Below, in pieces: positions 30,869 to 38,244 of a stretch of 64,000 nt of DNA. This DNA comes from Methanothermobacter sp. (lineage in GTDB: Archaea; Methanobacteriota; Methanobacteria; Methanobacteriales; DSM-23052), in contig JASFYN010000001.1 of the NCBI GenBank assembly GCA_030055615.1, positions 141,267 to 205,266 of the forward strand, read 5' to 3'. Both the position numbers and the translations under genes were made by a program. A model generated the notes under the pieces. That model made no database searches and was not told the DNA's origin. It worked only from the letters and a program-made list of their open reading frames with translations. Position 1 is the first letter of the stretch. Each line of letters begins with the position of its first letter.

Positions 30869-31639
30869 ATGCTATTATATTTTATGGGCCTAACAATTTT
30901 TGTGTGGGTGTGGATAGTGTTAGACCCCTCCGATATTAAAATTATCTATAGGGACTCCGGCGGCCATTTGGAAAAAAATGCTATTATAAGAGAGTACCTT
31001 AGGTTTAATCCATCCTTTAGAAGATTGTTCGAGTATTCTAAGATGGGAACTCCCCTCGTGACCTTGGGGGAGGGGAGGCCCCGTGTCATGATAACTGCAG
31101 GTGTTCATGGTAATGAGATTCCACCGCAGCTTGCAACTCTTGAACTTATTAAATTTCTTGCTCATTTAGATATTACTGGGACGGTTTTTGTTATACCTTT
31201 TGCCGCGCCATGGTCGACTATGAACAATACTCGTTGGTTTAAGGGCGTTGATCTTAATCGTTCTTCCCATGCTCCGGGTTCTGTGACGAATACTATATTT
31301 AAGGTTGCGGTTGGTTTGAATGTGGATGCTCTTGGGGATTTCCATTCAACCGCGCCAAGGAGTAACCCTGGGAGGGAGAGTATTTTCTGTTCTAAGAAAC
31401 CTTGTAGGAAAAGTTATCTGATAGCAAAGTATATAAGTAGAATGGGCTCATCAGATGTTATAGTTTATGAGAATGCGGCTTCACATTATAAAGGCGCTCT
31501 TGAGGATGAATGCAATCTTGGTGGGGTGGGCGCGGTTACTTGTGAAGTCGTGTCGAAGAATGGTTCATTAACCCTTGGAAGCCTTGAAAGATCGCTCCTT
31601 CAAATGAAAGCTTTCCTCAAATACTTTAATATAATCTAG
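30869..31639 (+). CDS. AstE/AspA-type zinc deacylase (M14-like)
   Basis: The protein resembles succinylglutamate desuccinylase/aspartoacylase enzymes, zinc hydrolases related to M14 carboxypeptidases. Zinc motif ITAGVHGNEIPPQLA supplies His and Glu; GVDLNRSSH and DFHST follow, and ALEDECNLGG with VTCEVV may hold the catalytic Glu. The N-terminal 16 residues are hydrophobic; a GTG at 30917 after GGGTGTGG is an alternative start that removes them. The substrate is unknown. It is followed closely by a membrane hydrolase gene. Confidence 0.8.
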   Translation: MLLYFMGLTIFVWVWIVLDPSDIKIIYRDSGGHLEKNAIIREYLRFNPSFRRLFEYSKMGTPLVTLGEGRPRVMITAGVHGNEIPPQLATLELIKFLAHLDITGTVFVIPFAAPWSTMNNTRWFKGVDLNRSSHAPGSVTNTIFKVAVGLNVDALGDFHSTAPRSNPGRESIFCSKKPCRKSYLIAKYISRMGSSDVIVYENAASHYKGALEDECNLGGVGAVTCEVVSKNGSLTLGSLERSLLQMKAFLKYFNII

Positions 31640-32334: not shown

Positions 32335-32399
32335 AATAGAAAAAGATAAATAATAAGAGGATCCAATATCAAAATATAATATGTAGTGGAAACTTTAGC

Positions 32400-33614
32400 A
32401 TGAAAAATTCTCCGAAAATACTTTTAGCTGGTTATAATGGTGCTAATAACACTGGCTCTGAGGCTAGATTGCTTTCAATAATAGAGGATATAAGGGTGAA
32501 TGTGGATTCTAAGGCCCTGATCACCGTACCCACGTTAAATGAGGGAAACTTAAGACGTTATCTTAAAGAGGACGATCTTTTAAGGATAGTTCCCATATCC
32601 ACAATATTCTTTTTTGATATACGAAGACTGGTTAAAGAACACGACATTCTATTATTAGTAGAGGGAAGTTGCTATATGGACACATGGACTTCAGCACTCC
32701 TCTGGGCATTTTTATGGGCTACAAGATGTGCCCATGATTTCAAAAAGATAAGCGTGGCCTATGCAGTAGATGCAGGCCACTTATCATCCTTAAACAAATT
32801 CTTGGTTAAGCGAGAAGCCGATAAAACAAGTCTAATTTTGACAAGAACGGAATTGGCAGCGAAAAAACTCAAGAAAATAGGAATTAAAGCACCTATTGAA
32901 ACTACAGCCGACTGTGCGTTTACATTTAAAACAGCGAAAGAAGATACCAATATTCTTGATGAAATATGGCCAGAGCTAGATCATGGGTTGGTAGGATTAG
33001 CACCAGTCGATTTTTATCTATGGCCACTGGTAATGCGCCCATGGGGGAAAAAAGAGAATTTATACAAGTGGCCTTATTATTATTCCAATTCAGAAGAAAG
33101 AACACGAAAAAGTGAACAATTAGCTCTTAAATTGGCTCAAGAACTTGACAAAATAATCGATGAACATGGCAAGGGGATAGCATTAATTTGCATGGAAGAA
33201 TTGGACGAGCCACTGGCAAGAAACATAAAAAATAGGATTAAAAGTCCTGAAATGGTACGAATATTTTCATCGAAGGACTATAACGCCTCCCAGATGACAA
33301 ACATCCTCAGAAGCCTTGAACTTCTTATAACCTCCCGTTATCATGCCTCAGTTTTGTCCATTAAAGCTTCAATCCCCCAGATAGCCATAGGACATGACAC
33401 ACGTCTTAAAGGACTTTACAAGGAAATGAAACTAGAAGATTATTTATTAAACCACCTAAACCCAAAACTTTGGAATGAATTGAGAGAAAAAGTTGATGAA
33501 CTGCTTGAAAATCCTAAAAAGCAGCATAAAATCTTAAAAAATGGATTTATTGAACACTTCAACCGTGCTAATAAAAACCCACAAATACTTAAAAATTTTC
33601 TTCAAAAGAAGTGA
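32400..33614 (+). CDS. Polysaccharide pyruvyl transferase family protein
   Basis: A 404-residue protein of the CsaB/WcaK family, which transfers pyruvate from PEP to sugars of cell-surface polymers as ketals. Visible features are the N-terminal KILLAGYNGANNTGSEARLL loop, LLVEGSCYMDTW, TADCAFTF and the C-terminal LITSRYHASVLSIKASIPQIAIGHDTRLKGL. It is the first gene of a four-gene operon, six bases ahead of the reductase-ligase fusion. The enclosing operon is A-rich and uses weak ribosome binding sites, unlike its neighbours. Whether it pyruvylates a surface glycan here is inference. Confidence 0.85.
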   Translation: MKNSPKILLAGYNGANNTGSEARLLSIIEDIRVNVDSKALITVPTLNEGNLRRYLKEDDLLRIVPISTIFFFDIRRLVKEHDILLLVEGSCYMDTWTSALLWAFLWATRCAHDFKKISVAYAVDAGHLSSLNKFLVKREADKTSLILTRTELAAKKLKKIGIKAPIETTADCAFTFKTAKEDTNILDEIWPELDHGLVGLAPVDFYLWPLVMRPWGKKENLYKWPYYYSNSEERTRKSEQLALKLAQELDKIIDEHGKGIALICMEELDEPLARNIKNRIKSPEMVRIFSSKDYNASQMTNILRSLELLITSRYHASVLSIKASIPQIAIGHDTRLKGLYKEMKLEDYLLNHLNPKLWNELREKVDELLENPKKQHKILKNGFIEHFNRANKNPQILKNFLQKK

Positions 33615-33620
33615 AAAAAC

Positions 33621-36374
33621 ATGAACAAAATCATATTATTAACCGGTGCAAACGGCTTTTTAGGGACCCAAATTACTTCACGCCTTCTTAAACAATACAA
33701 TCATAAAATCATTGTTTTAATGAGGGGTGAAAGCAAAGAAGATGCTGTGAATAGGCTATATAGGGGATGGTGGGAATTCCCAGAACTCCTAGAAGAAATA
33801 GGTGGTAGAATTCATGTGTTAAATGGTGATATTTCAAAAAGCAATCTTGGACTAAAAAAGGACGAATATGAAAAACTTGTCCAAAATATTACCCACATAA
33901 TTCACACTGCTGCAGACTGGAGACTTAAAAGTTCCCACAAGGAACTCCAAAAAACCAATGTACAAGGAACCCAAAATCTACTAGAATTGGCCCAGTTAGC
34001 CCATGAAGACCATGGATTGGAACGTTTTTCCCATTTATCCACTGCTTACGTGGCTGGGGCTAAAATGGGCATAATATCTGAAAATAATTTAACATCCAAA
34101 CATGGATTTTTAAATAATTATGAAAAAACTAAGTTTGAAAGCGAAATTGAAGTGAAAAAATCAGAATTTAACATATCCATTTTTCGTCCAAGCATGATTG
34201 TCGGCGATTCAACCACAGGATACGTTAAAACATTTAATACGATATATATACCCTTAAAATTATATTTAAAAGGCCAATTACCAATAATCCCAGCTCACCC
34301 ATCAATGAAAGTCAACTTAGTCCCTGTAGATTATGTTGCAGATGCGGTCATAGACTTGACATTTGATTCAAGAGCAGCGAATAAAACTTTCCATTTAACA
34401 GCACCACGAGGATCTCTTCCCACTTTAAAAGAACTTCTCAAATTTGTTAAAAAATGGAGCCATGAAAACCTTAATGTTAAACTTAATAACCCAATTTACA
34501 TGCCACTGAACATTACATTCATTCAAAAAATTTCATCCATTGGCAAAATATTCGAGAAAACAGCTAGATTATTCGAAACTATTAACACCCTTTCACCTTA
34601 TTTAAATGAAGACAGAGATTACCAAAGGAATAACACAGATAAAATACTAGGACCTTATAAACATGATTGGCATGATTTTTTACCTAAAATCCTTGAATTT
34701 GCCATCTATTATGGATTTTTACACAGATCTGATCGCACAGTCCATGAACAAGTCTTATTCCGCTTAAAGAGCAGAAGCATGCCCACTCATTACCATGACA
34801 TTGTTAAAGGTGAAATTAAAAATTTTAGCGCACTTGATATCCATCAAAACATAATCAAGGCTTTGAAATCCCTTCAAAAAATGGGAATTCAGAAGGGTGA
34901 CAAGATAGCAATAACGGGTTTCAACAGCACAAGATATTTCATACTAGATATTGCAATTGGCCTTACAGGTGCCGTAAGCGTCCCTATTTATTATACAAGT
35001 CCTCTAGACGAAATCAAACAAATATTATCTGACAGTTGCGCGAAGATATTTTTCGTAGGAAACCCTAAACTTCTAAAGGATTTAAAGGACATGCGGATTC
35101 CCATAATTTCATTCCATAATGGGAAAGATGATATTATATCATGGAAAAAGTTCCTTAAAATTGGCGAAAAGAGAAATAAAATTGCAAACATCCCTTTAAA
35201 TTTCAATGATGTTGCTACTATACGTTATACTTCAGGGACAACAGGAAAACCACGGGGGGTCATATTTACCCATGGGAATCTACGTTGGATGGCAGAATTT
35301 ATTGCGTCAATGCCCCCATGGAAAGACAGAACCAATGAAGTATCTTATCTGTCATTTTTACCCATGAATCATGTTGTCGAAGGTATTTTCGGAACATATT
35401 CACCATATTATGCTCCCACATCCTTAAATATCTATTTTCTGGAAAATTTCCAAAATCTTGTAAAAGCTCTTCGAATAACAAGACCCACGATATTCTTTTC
35501 AGTACCCCGTTTCTATGAAAAAGTATGGGACAGTCTACGAAATTCAAAAATAGGAAAAACCTACCTAAACTCTAAGGGGATTTTAAAGAAACTCTTAAAA
35601 AAATTGATTAAAAAAAGAATCCTTAAAAAAACCGGCTTGGATAAATGCAAGCAATTAATTGTCGGTTCCGCGCCAATAAACGATGATATCCTCCAATCCT
35701 ACCATGAGATTGATATCGAAGTCCATAATGCTTACGGATTAACTGAAGCACCACTTGTAACTATTAACAAGACGGGAAGAAACAGGATAGGGACAGTAGG
35801 AGAACCCCTACCATCCACCGATATTAGTATAGCTTCGGATGGTGAAATACTAGTAAAGGGGCCACAGGTAACCCAAGGCTATTTTAAAGGCAATTCTATC
35901 CAAATTTTTAAAAATGGGTGGCTTCACACAGGCGATATTGGCCACATAACTCCACAGGGCTCTCTTGTAATCACAGGCCGAAAAAAGGAGTTTATAATTA
36001 ATTCTTATGGTAAAACGATAAATCCATTAAAGATTGAAGGAATGCTTAAAAACATCCCAGGGATCAGAGAGGCCATGATAATCGGTGATGAAAAACCATA
36101 TTGTAGTGCTCTTTTATGGACCAAAGAGGCGCACCCAAAGAGTATCGACGATAATATTAAAGAAATAAATACTTGTCTCTCCCACCCAGAAAAGATCAAA
36201 AGATGGGTTGTTCTAAATGACGACCTTTCAATTGGTGCTGATTTAACCCCAAATCTTAAACTTAAAAGAAAAGCCATTATTAAACGTTATAGGGATGTTG
36301 TTGAATTTATTTATGGCGATGGCCCAAAAACTTGTAATATATTACATTTTGGTCATGTAAAGGTGCTATCATGA
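33621..36374 (+). CDS. Thioester/fatty-acyl reductase fused to an acyl-adenylating (AMP-binding) enzyme
   Basis: A 917-residue two-domain fusion. Residues 1 to about 375 are an extended SDR of the fatty-acyl-CoA/thioester-reductase type: nucleotide loop TGANGFLG at 8-15, IIHTAADWRL, HLSTAYVAG, catalytic Y167xxxK171, and RPSMIVGD. Residues about 400-917 are an AMP-binding ligase with YTSGTTGKPRG at 536-546, NAYGLTEAP, GWLHTGDIG, GRKKEFIINSYGKTINP and a C-terminal Lys in LKLKRKAI. No carrier-protein motif is seen, and the order is reversed relative to carboxylic acid reductases. It could activate a carboxylic acid and reduce it to aldehyde or alcohol. The substrate is unknown. Confidence 0.88.
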   Translation: MNKIILLTGANGFLGTQITSRLLKQYNHKIIVLMRGESKEDAVNRLYRGWWEFPELLEEIGGRIHVLNGDISKSNLGLKKDEYEKLVQNITHIIHTAADWRLKSSHKELQKTNVQGTQNLLELAQLAHEDHGLERFSHLSTAYVAGAKMGIISENNLTSKHGFLNNYEKTKFESEIEVKKSEFNISIFRPSMIVGDSTTGYVKTFNTIYIPLKLYLKGQLPIIPAHPSMKVNLVPVDYVADAVIDLTFDSRAANKTFHLTAPRGSLPTLKELLKFVKKWSHENLNVKLNNPIYMPLNITFIQKISSIGKIFEKTARLFETINTLSPYLNEDRDYQRNNTDKILGPYKHDWHDFLPKILEFAIYYGFLHRSDRTVHEQVLFRLKSRSMPTHYHDIVKGEIKNFSALDIHQNIIKALKSLQKMGIQKGDKIAITGFNSTRYFILDIAIGLTGAVSVPIYYTSPLDEIKQILSDSCAKIFFVGNPKLLKDLKDMRIPIISFHNGKDDIISWKKFLKIGEKRNKIANIPLNFNDVATIRYTSGTTGKPRGVIFTHGNLRWMAEFIASMPPWKDRTNEVSYLSFLPMNHVVEGIFGTYSPYYAPTSLNIYFLENFQNLVKALRITRPTIFFSVPRFYEKVWDSLRNSKIGKTYLNSKGILKKLLKKLIKKRILKKTGLDKCKQLIVGSAPINDDILQSYHEIDIEVHNAYGLTEAPLVTINKTGRNRIGTVGEPLPSTDISIASDGEILVKGPQVTQGYFKGNSIQIFKNGWLHTGDIGHITPQGSLVITGRKKEFIINSYGKTINPLKIEGMLKNIPGIREAMIIGDEKPYCSALLWTKEAHPKSIDDNIKEINTCLSHPEKIKRWVVLNDDLSIGADLTPNLKLKRKAIIKRYRDVVEFIYGDGPKTCNILHFGHVKVLS

Positions 36375-36958
36375 GCTTTTTATTAAAAATTGCTTCACTT
36401 TGGCTTCCAGATTTTATCATGAAAAAGGAATTGGATAAAATAGCTTTATCAACCATAAATGGACTAGACAAACTTTTGGAAGAATATGCCCCTTCAAAGG
36501 TGGGGGAAATTCCAGATGAAAAACTAGAAGGGAGCCTTGAAGAAAGAAGAGCTTCAATGGCCATGGCCCATAATAAGCGTGTCAAGGCATTGATAAGTGC
36601 AATAGGACATGAAAAGACTATCAAAATTGGAAGAGAAGCCATGTTTAGAGTGGGTTGTAATCTGGGATGTGAAGCTCGACAAAGACTTAAAGTGGGAAAT
36701 GATCTTGGAGATCTTGAACTCGCAGCTAAAATATTATACAGAATATTGGGGATAAAATTTAAGATAAAAAATATGGTCATGGTCGTAAATACATGTTCCT
36801 TATCCAAATATTATTCTCCAGAAGCTTGCATGGTTTTAAGCGCCGCAGATGAGGGTGTAGTACATGGGTTAAATAAAAATTTGGATATGCAATTTAAACA
36901 TAGAATTACCATTGGATCACTTGAATGTATAGCTTGTATATATAGGGTAAAAAGATGA
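36371..36958 (+). CDS. L-2-amino-thiazoline-4-carboxylate hydrolase-like protein
   Basis: A 195-residue protein with an N-terminal helical half and a C-terminal part bearing the pattern of the ATC-hydrolase-like family: [20 protein letters not shown] with two Cys, an acidic DEGVVHGLN, and [14 protein letters not shown] with two more Cys. The family's enzymology is known only for one bacterial member, so a role here cannot be stated. Its start overlaps the upstream fusion gene by ATGA and its end overlaps the next gene in the same way, so it is an integral part of the operon. Confidence 0.65.
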
Positions 36959-38244
36959 GAGCAATAGTTGTAGGAACCGGAGCGGGAGGAACAACAGTTG
37001 CTCGTGAATTGGCAACTCGAGGCTTCAAGGTAGTAATATTAGAAGCGGGAAAGGAATTCAAACCATTCAGACGACTTTTATCATTAGCCGCGCCACTTAG
37101 AAAAACTGGTATTCTCGGAAATGAAAAGATCATTAGCCGAATATTTCCTTCAATGAACACTATAAGATCAAATGATCTTGTACTTTTAAGGGGAATGACA
37201 ATAGGCGGTTCCACCACCCTTTCTTGTGGCAATATAGCCCGAGCTGAGCACGGATTAAAGAAAATTGGACTTGACCTCACACCAGAATTTGAAGAACTTG
37301 AAAAAAATATTAATATAAAGGATTTTCCAAGAAAAAGGTGGCGGCCAATAACAAATAAAATGTTCGAAGTTGCAGAAGGACTTGGGTTGAAACCAAAATC
37401 CACATACAAGGCTATAGACCCTGATAAGTGTGTATCTTGTGGATTATGTGAACTTGGATGTGCTACGGGTGCTAAATGGGATTTTAGGCGTTTTTTGGAT
37501 GATGCAATCCGTGAAGGCGCCTTACTTTATACATCGTCACCCGTTAAAAAGGTCATAACAGAAAATGGAAAAATTAAAGGCGTTATTGTAAAACGCGGGT
37601 TCAAGTCCAAGACTTTAAAAGCAGATGTTGTTGTTTTGGCTGCTGGAGGGATTGGCACGGCCCAGATACTAAGAGCTTCGGGACTACCAGTTGAAGACAA
37701 CTTGTGGGTTGATATCGTCCTCACATTAGGGGGTGTTTTGAGAGGGGCTGAACAGCTTAAAGAACCTCCTATGCTCTGGTATACAGAAGATGATGGTTAT
37801 ATCCTCTCTCCTTATATCGATATTTTATCCCACTGGTTTCATAAACCATGGAGGAATGTCTCTCTAAAAGATAGGGTGGGTATAATGGTAAAACTTGCAG
37901 ATACGGAAGATGGGACAGTCTTTGCACATGGAAAGGTTGAAAAAACCATAAAAGACGAAGATCGTTTGCGCTTGGATAAAGCGCTTGAAAGTGCTAGAAA
38001 AATTATGGAATCTGCTGGCGTTTCAGGTCCATATATTAAGGGAATGTACAATGGGGGACACCTTGGAGGTACCGTTCCACTCAAGGCTGAGGATTTAGAT
38101 TCAATGAAGCCTTCATGGTTGCCTAACGGTTTGTGGGTTGCTGATCTTTCATTAGCACCTCGTTCACAAGGAATGCCCACGATGCTCCTTGCAGCAGCCC
38201 TTGCACTTAGAGTATCAAAAAAAATAGTAAATTGTAAATTATAA
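36955..38244 (+). CDS. GMC-type FAD oxidoreductase, long-chain-alcohol-oxidase-like
   Basis: The 429-residue flavoprotein starts with a dinucleotide-binding fold ([15 protein letters not shown], GxGxxG at 7-12; VVILEAG) and [15 protein letters not shown]. At residues 159-169 it has [11 protein letters not shown] followed by ATGAKW, the Cys-rich stretch seen in COG2303 and plant long-chain alcohol oxidases; here the CX2CX2CX3C spacing could also hold a [4Fe-4S] cluster. The C-terminus has the catalytic His in [10 protein letters not shown] and [18 protein letters not shown]. It is the last gene of the operon. Oxidation of a long-chain or isoprenoid alcohol is an inference from family and context. 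Confidence 0.82.

Follow-up and report, generated by a model that had tools for sequence, protein, structure and literature searches.

Proteins of the ATC_hydrolase family (PF14196) have been linked to the V4R and HNOB domains with three conserved cysteines (PMC5847659), and in this superfamily TRAPPC3 and PoxR hold hydrophobic ligands, palmitate or phenols being bound (PMC10933270). A described protein, TolI, is annotated as an ATC hydrolase (PMC8401325); it is an Fe-S cluster protein which catalyzes the removal of vinyl groups, perhaps via the addition of water (PMC10548856), and 8 bases after its gene comes the gene of a flavin adenine dinucleotide (FAD) protein (PMC10459692). Here we analyzed a four-gene cassette of Methanothermobacter sp. 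(genome size 1.49 Mb) in which the gene of an ATC-hydrolase-like protein is likewise followed by that of a flavoprotein. The stretch of DNA analyzed, called the window hereafter, comprises 64,000 nucleotides of contig JASFYN010000001.1 (positions 141,267 to 205,266), and the cassette occupies its positions 32400-38244, where four plus-strand genes lie nearly end to end: a polysaccharide-pyruvyl-transferase-family gene (PPT), a reductase-adenylase fusion (RA), the ATC-hydrolase-like gene (ATC) and the gene of a GMC-family flavoprotein (GMC). The four open reading frames (ORFs) had been pointed out in an earlier sequence-only reading of the window; all of them were found at that place and on the plus strand, and Pfam backs the families which had been assigned to them. 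The cassette combines known enzyme families in a new way, and no description of this gene combination was found in the literature, a weak negative as open-access papers only were covered.

The four genes almost certainly form one unit, because the same block recurs in seven phyla with differing flanks. These phyla, split loci included, belong to both archaea and bacteria, and the hosts are mostly of anaerobic lineages. The complete cassette is present on one contig at 11 loci (the window, L037, L041, L042, L045, L046, L047, L049, L051, L055 and L101), whose hosts are Methanobacteriales, Bathyarchaeota, Thermoplasmatota, KSB1, Spirochaetales and Chloroflexi. In four more genomes it is split over two contigs (L114+L040, L102+L103, L105+L104 and L059+L106), the state in which it is found in the Atribacteria genome, and the cassettes of L100 and L099 run into contig ends. 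The order PPT-RA-ATC-GMC is kept in 10 of the 11 complete loci and is RA-PPT-ATC-GMC in L047, while the flanks are unrelated from phylum to phylum and the pairwise identities correlate across the cassette genes. RA occurs in 6 of 60 genomes of the window's own order, with all four genes together wherever the contig permits. Whether the genes stay together had been raised as a test in the sequence-only reading: they do, at these 11 complete loci and far beyond the methanogens. In the window itself PPT and RA are separated by a 6-base gap, and the RA-ATC and ATC-GMC junctions are ATGA overlaps of stop and start. It might be argued from genomes having RA alone that the four genes are unlinked and adjacent by chance, but with the same block between differing flanks in seven phyla the probability of this is negligible, and chance neighbourhood is ruled out by the conserved gene order. 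What the computation gives directly is the unit, the families or predicted folds of its products and their conserved residues; invariance, wherever stated below, refers to a comparison over 14 cassettes.

RA carries in one protein NAD_binding_4 (191.6 bits, residues 7-243) and AMP-binding (185.1 bits, residues 416-755) matches, and the Pfam scan found no carrier-protein domain, so its place must be taken by CoA or the free adenylate. The closest solved relative of the reductase (R) domain is the MxaA reductase (E 1e-25), and its residues G9, G12, G15, S140, T141, Y167 and K171, which form the Rossmann glycines and the S/T-Y-K set, are invariant; against the thioester reductase model TIGR01746 it reaches 163.3 bits, below the cut-off of 213.35. 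The closest solved relatives of the adenylation (A) domain are acyl-CoA synthetases, the best NCBIfam models for RA are long-chain fatty acid CoA ligases, and the residues checked in the ANL motifs TSGTTG, YGxTE and TGD vary little or not at all, the C-terminal Lys880 being invariant. Among solved structures 5mso is the best match to the whole of RA, and the score against the carboxylic acid reductase (CAR) family model is 175 bits for a cut-off of 1300; in neither architecture nor score is RA a CAR, although its mode of action may be CAR-like. A fusion of acyl reductase and adenylating enzyme had been proposed from the letters alone, and since the catalytic motifs of both domains are preserved throughout the 14 cassettes, the activation and reduction of an acid is a fair inference. 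AMP-binding genes are present at seven further places of the own genome, and these have no bearing on the substrate.

The ATC-like protein of the window, taken alone, scores 19.4 bits against PF14196 (cut-off 28.1), and all 8 of the scanned relatives match this family (best 7.8e-10). A PDB sequence search with its profile gave no significant match, and it was the fold search alone that placed the protein. With the predicted model (predicted local distance difference test, pLDDT, 94.5) the fold search gave TRAPPC3 (E 2.0e-4, probability 1.00, template modeling score 0.56/0.62), the best matches being palmitate-bound, followed by the PoxR/MopR phenol sensors and H-NOX, which accords with the published link of PF14196 to V4R and HNOB (PMC5847659). 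Four of its residues, C142, C153, C186 and D160, are invariant. It is reasonable to propose that the protein has a hydrophobic pocket and a metal or Fe-S site formed by three cysteines, and a hydrophobic ligand would fit because the fold belongs to a palmitate- and phenol-binding superfamily.

Two other readings of the cassette have to be weighed at this point. One is degradation or detoxification, in which RA together with ATC and GMC would take in inhibitory or fermentable acids of the environment, long-chain fatty or aromatic ones, and convert them. V4R relatives sense phenols (PMC5847659), the A domain is nearest to acyl-CoA synthetases and a TetR regulator lies upstream in genus g8, but a constant pyruvyl transferase gene is ill-suited to breakdown and no beta-oxidation or transport genes are common to the loci, and we hold this role clearly unlikely. 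The other is cofactor tailoring, in which the side chains of a tetrapyrrole or sulfur-bearing cofactor would be reduced and trimmed in the manner of TolI and ATC hydrolase. TolI acts on porphyrinogens and the gene of an FAD protein comes next to it, as GMC comes after ATC (PMC10548856, PMC10459692). TolJ, however, is known here only as an FAD protein, and no tetrapyrrole gene is found near any cassette. Pyruvyl transfer is not known for tetrapyrrole or sulfur-bearing cofactors, and on the whole tailoring of this kind appears very unlikely.

The GMC protein matches GMC_oxred_N (PF00732) with 70.9 bits (cut-off 23) and GMC_oxred_C with 15.7 bits, below the cut-off of 24.6, and its fold search returned GMC enzymes (E 1.4e-20), the closest solved ones being sugar, sterol and other GMC enzymes. 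The Cys-rich stretch noticed in the sequence-only reading is a CxxCxxCxxxC motif whose four cysteines (C159, C162, C165 and C169) are all invariant in the 14 cassettes, and weak matches to 4Fe-4S domains were obtained with Pfam. His369 is invariant too; at the position of the second catalytic His/Asn, 12 of 14 cassettes have Met or Leu, and Asn occurs in Chloroflexi and Atribacteria only. The MftG models are far under cut-off for this protein. The same reading had likened the protein to a long-chain alcohol oxidase, and this is not supported: the 25 best NCBIfam matches include no such model (the library may have none), the nearest solved folds are of the other kinds named above, the second active-site residue is absent in those 12 cassettes and most hosts are of anaerobic lineages. 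The own genome also encodes a second GMC protein (L036:7347-8537, that is C1:487346-488536), which has a similar Cys motif and is 35% identical; its gene adjoins a homocysteine-biosynthesis (PF01837) gene and a NIL-ferredoxin gene, and of the 60 genomes of the order 59 have a relative of this GMC family. The own genome has two genes of similar AstE-like zinc hydrolases as well, one in the window (30869-31639), two genes upstream of the cassette, and the other (L036:8545-9750) directly after the second GMC gene, which may be a coincidence.

ATC-like and GMC most likely work as a pair, to judge from two genomes. In Chloroflexi and Atribacteria these two proteins have diverged together and PPT and RA have not: the GMC sequences are 37-42% identical to all others and 56% to each other, and the ATC sequences 20-30% to the others and 39% to each other. 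When each clade is represented once, ATC and GMC correlate at 0.93 and all the other pairs at 0.22-0.49.

PPT, which is part of nearly every cassette, matches PF04230 with 52 bits (cut-off 25.3); 8 of 8 relatives match the family too, and a PDB sequence search with the PPT profile gave no significant match. The residues S312-R313-Y314-H315 are invariant, and this SRYH corresponds to the phosphoenolpyruvate (PEP)-type motif of the family; with this motif PPT would be a putative PEP-to-sugar pyruvyl transferase. Against the CsaB equivalog TIGR03609 it scores 85.7 bits, far below 213.1, and its subfamily is confined to cassettes within the groups searched. The sequence-only reading had favoured envelope decoration, in which a surface lipid or polysaccharide would be pyruvylated while RA and GMC supply or adjust its lipid anchor. 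The polysaccharide pyruvyl transferase family of this nearly constant gene is in its favour, but no glycosyltransferase, flippase or polymerase is common to the flanks of the loci, the envelopes of the host phyla are quite different and PPT stays far under the CsaB cut-off; we regard such a role as unlikely.

The cassette is probably a self-contained four-enzyme pathway acting on one small molecule, and its product is likely oily. For the chemistry the following outline is plausible, if short of probable; every catalytic step, the order of the steps and the hydrophobic substrate we infer. The A domain of RA would activate a carboxylic acid with ATP and load it on CoA, and the R domain would use NAD(P)H to reduce the thioester, giving an aldehyde or alcohol. 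The ATC-like protein, with its TRAPPC3/V4R-type pocket and three-cysteine metal or Fe-S site, may hold the intermediate for a hydrolytic or hydration step. The GMC flavoprotein paired with it would perform a further oxidoreduction, the electrons passing via the CxxCxxCxxxC cluster site and not to oxygen, and PPT would add pyruvate from PEP to hydroxyls of the product or of a carrier. The substrate is probably a carboxylic acid, and likely a hydrophobic one, which is favoured because of the V4R-type fold and the acyl-CoA-ligase type of the A domain. In a fuller form, which we put forward tentatively, the cassette would be a horizontally mobile archaeal and bacterial pathway leading to pyruvylated, reduced, lipid-like metabolites of a new class via a V4R-fold Fe-S enzyme which acts jointly with a [4Fe-4S] GMC flavoenzyme.

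Several points weigh against the four-enzyme pathway. No neighbour pointing to a substrate or product is common across the phyla. When the Chloroflexi and Atribacteria genomes are taken out, the ATC-GMC correlation is 0.87 and no longer special beside RA-GMC (0.87) and RA-ATC (0.84). The model of the GMC protein is moderate (pLDDT 79.9), and low around residues 167-170. At the score reached against CsaB the acceptor of PPT, and even its use of PEP, are putative, and RA, which is present without a GMC gene in some genomes, may serve other ends. Many of the loci stem from metagenomes, where misbinning may affect the short ones, for example L048 and L049; more trust can be put in L055, on a contig of 112 kb, and in L050, which has RA only and lies on a contig of 498 kb.

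The relatives of RA were tracked in one scan across the genomes of 84,980 species, and were found in Bathyarchaeota, Thermoplasmatota including Methanomassiliicoccales, KSB1, Spirochaetota, Chloroflexota and Atribacteria, the last being cut by a contig end. The cassette is rare: among the 152 genomes of the own phylum 8 have cassette-type PPT, as do 1 of 247 of Spirochaetota and 1 of 82 of the KSB1 group. RA is present in 1 of 50 genomes of Atribacterota, at full length in 2 of 350 of Chloroflexota, in 3 of 300 from the phylum to which the Bathyarchaeota genome belongs and in 5 of 243 from that of the Thermoplasmata genome, where a sixth match is confined to the A domain. None of 200 bootstrap trees of RA unites the bacterial sequences in one group, and KSB1 groups with genus g8 of Methanobacteriales (87/84), while the formal test of a single bacterial clade is borderline (p 0.059). 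Horizontal spread between archaea and bacteria is likely but not proven, and the case for it lies mainly in the patchy distribution, because the tree test is borderline. Carriage by phage or plasmid is contradicted, as no relative was found on viral contigs, plasmids had no full-length RA and PHROG gave no meaningful match.

In the window the cassette is preceded by an AstE-like gene and a YdjM-family gene, and is followed by an antiporter-subunit gene set which starts with MNHE. Congener G001 has an intact cassette, with 70-79% protein identity, at this very site, flanked likewise by the YdjM and MNHE genes. In G002 this site has only the last 36 ATC codons and a broken GMC gene, and in G003 a PPT scrap and a GMC pseudogene interrupted by many stops remain as far as the contig reaches; the remnants in the congeners (L038:8578-10079 and L039:3556-4592) show internal deletion and loss of frame. 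As two intact and two decayed copies share one site in four congeners, the cassette is not a recent arrival, and most likely it was in place before the congeners split and was lost in two of them. Acquisition relative to the flanking genes had been suggested in the sequence-only reading from A-rich composition and weak ribosome binding sites. The composition does lean in that direction, though with a mild bias only: the cassette genes have a GC of 0.35-0.41, where the mean of the window ORFs is 0.397 (sd 0.031), and a GC at third codon positions (GC3) of 0.27-0.33, where that mean is 0.361 (sd 0.043). The ribosome binding sites are weak for PPT and RA and not for ATC, which has AGGTG 5′ of its start. 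Acquisition as a recent event is rejected by this mild bias together with the remnants at the same site, which show the cassette to be older.

Outside genera g8 and g11 no fifth gene is common to the loci, save an ORF after GMC in two Bathyarchaeota-group loci (L046:8368-8829 and L099:4041-4523); these are similar hydrophobic, membrane-protein-like ORFs of 153 and 160 aa with a cysteine motif, and they gave no Pfam match. An FMN-reductase-family flavoprotein is encoded just 5′ of PPT in genera g8 and g11 (L043); in g8, where a ferredoxin-type protein is encoded along with this flavoprotein (L041:4148-5987), the ferredoxin-type protein and the TetR regulator are both encoded farther upstream. 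The flavoprotein and ferredoxin-type neighbours are in keeping with redox work. Aldehyde ferredoxin oxidoreductase genes (L050:3797-5650 and L054:7225-9261) lie near RA genes which lack the rest of the cassette; as a clue to the substrate they were set aside, the link being too loose with two lone RA genes only. A sigma-70 promoter scan of the locus gave about the level of shuffled sequence, and the sigma-70 model is not applicable to archaea. The coordinates of the features are collected in Table 1.

Table 1. Features of the cassette, in window coordinates.
Feature	Position	Strand	Details and basis
PPT, polysaccharide-pyruvyl-transferase-family	32400..33614	+	404 aa; PF04230 match; SRYH invariant
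RA, reductase-adenylase fusion	33621..36374	+	917 aa; NAD_binding_4 and AMP-binding; full-length relatives in seven phyla
RA R domain, thioester-reductase type	33621..34440	+	MxaA relation; invariant active-site residues
RA A domain, acyl-CoA-ligase type, with C-terminal subdomain	34866..36317	+	PF00501 and PF23562; Lys880 invariant
ATC-hydrolase-like protein, predicted TRAPPC3/V4R fold	36371..36958	+	195 aa; PF14196 in relatives; model
GMC-family flavoprotein with ferredoxin-like cysteine motif	36955..38244	+	429 aa; PF00732; fold match
CxxCxxCxxxC of GMC (C159-C169), likely [4Fe-4S] site	37429..37461	+	invariant Cys; weak 4Fe-4S domain matches
ATGA overlap, RA stop / ATC start	36371..36374	+	sequence
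ATGA overlap, ATC stop / GMC start	36955..36958	+	sequence
AT-rich stretch, candidate operon TATA box	32371..32382	+	sequence; position

Four genes kept together across two domains of life point to a product which is useful in very different cells. If the proposed pathway is true, it joins a cysteine-ligated metal protein of TRAPPC3/V4R fold with a cluster-bearing GMC flavoprotein, a pairing not known before; it bears on the metabolic use in prokaryotes of a fold known from eukaryotic membrane trafficking, and possibly adds a new archaeal lipid. The genus of the window provides a ready comparison, with two species having the cassette and two that lost it.

Each part of the cassette has its counterpart among the known systems and differs from it. 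PPT shares the Pfam family and the SRYH motif with CsaB, but falls far under the equivalog cut-off and forms its own subfamily. The GMC protein has the N-terminal domain, the fold and the active-site His of the GMC oxidoreductases (fructose dehydrogenase, cholesterol oxidase and pyranose oxidase; MftG), whereas it is short (429 aa), has the CxxCxxCxxxC site and has lost the second catalytic His/Asn in 12 of 14 cassettes. The predicted fold of the ATC-like protein is that of TRAPPC3 and V4R (PoxR, MopR), with palmitate-holding TRAPPC3 as the best match, yet the protein is not a sensor domain or a TRAPP subunit, has three invariant cysteines and is 12-17% identical. With TolI/TolJ, likened by description only, the cassette shares an ATC-hydrolase-annotated protein directly followed by the gene of an FAD protein, and the Fe-S cluster of TolI, but the partners and the pathway are other and the hosts of TolI/TolJ are aerobic cyanobacteria. 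The R domain resembles the terminal thioester reductases of MxaA type in sequence and in the short-chain dehydrogenase/reductase active-site residues; the MxaA type ends a peptide or polyketide synthetase, whereas in RA the R domain is N-terminal, before the A domain. Like CAR, of which 5mso is an example, RA has adenylation and NAD(P)H-dependent thioester reduction in one chain; CAR runs A-carrier-R with a phosphopantetheine site, whereas RA has the reversed order R-A, is carrier-less and is constantly accompanied by three other genes.

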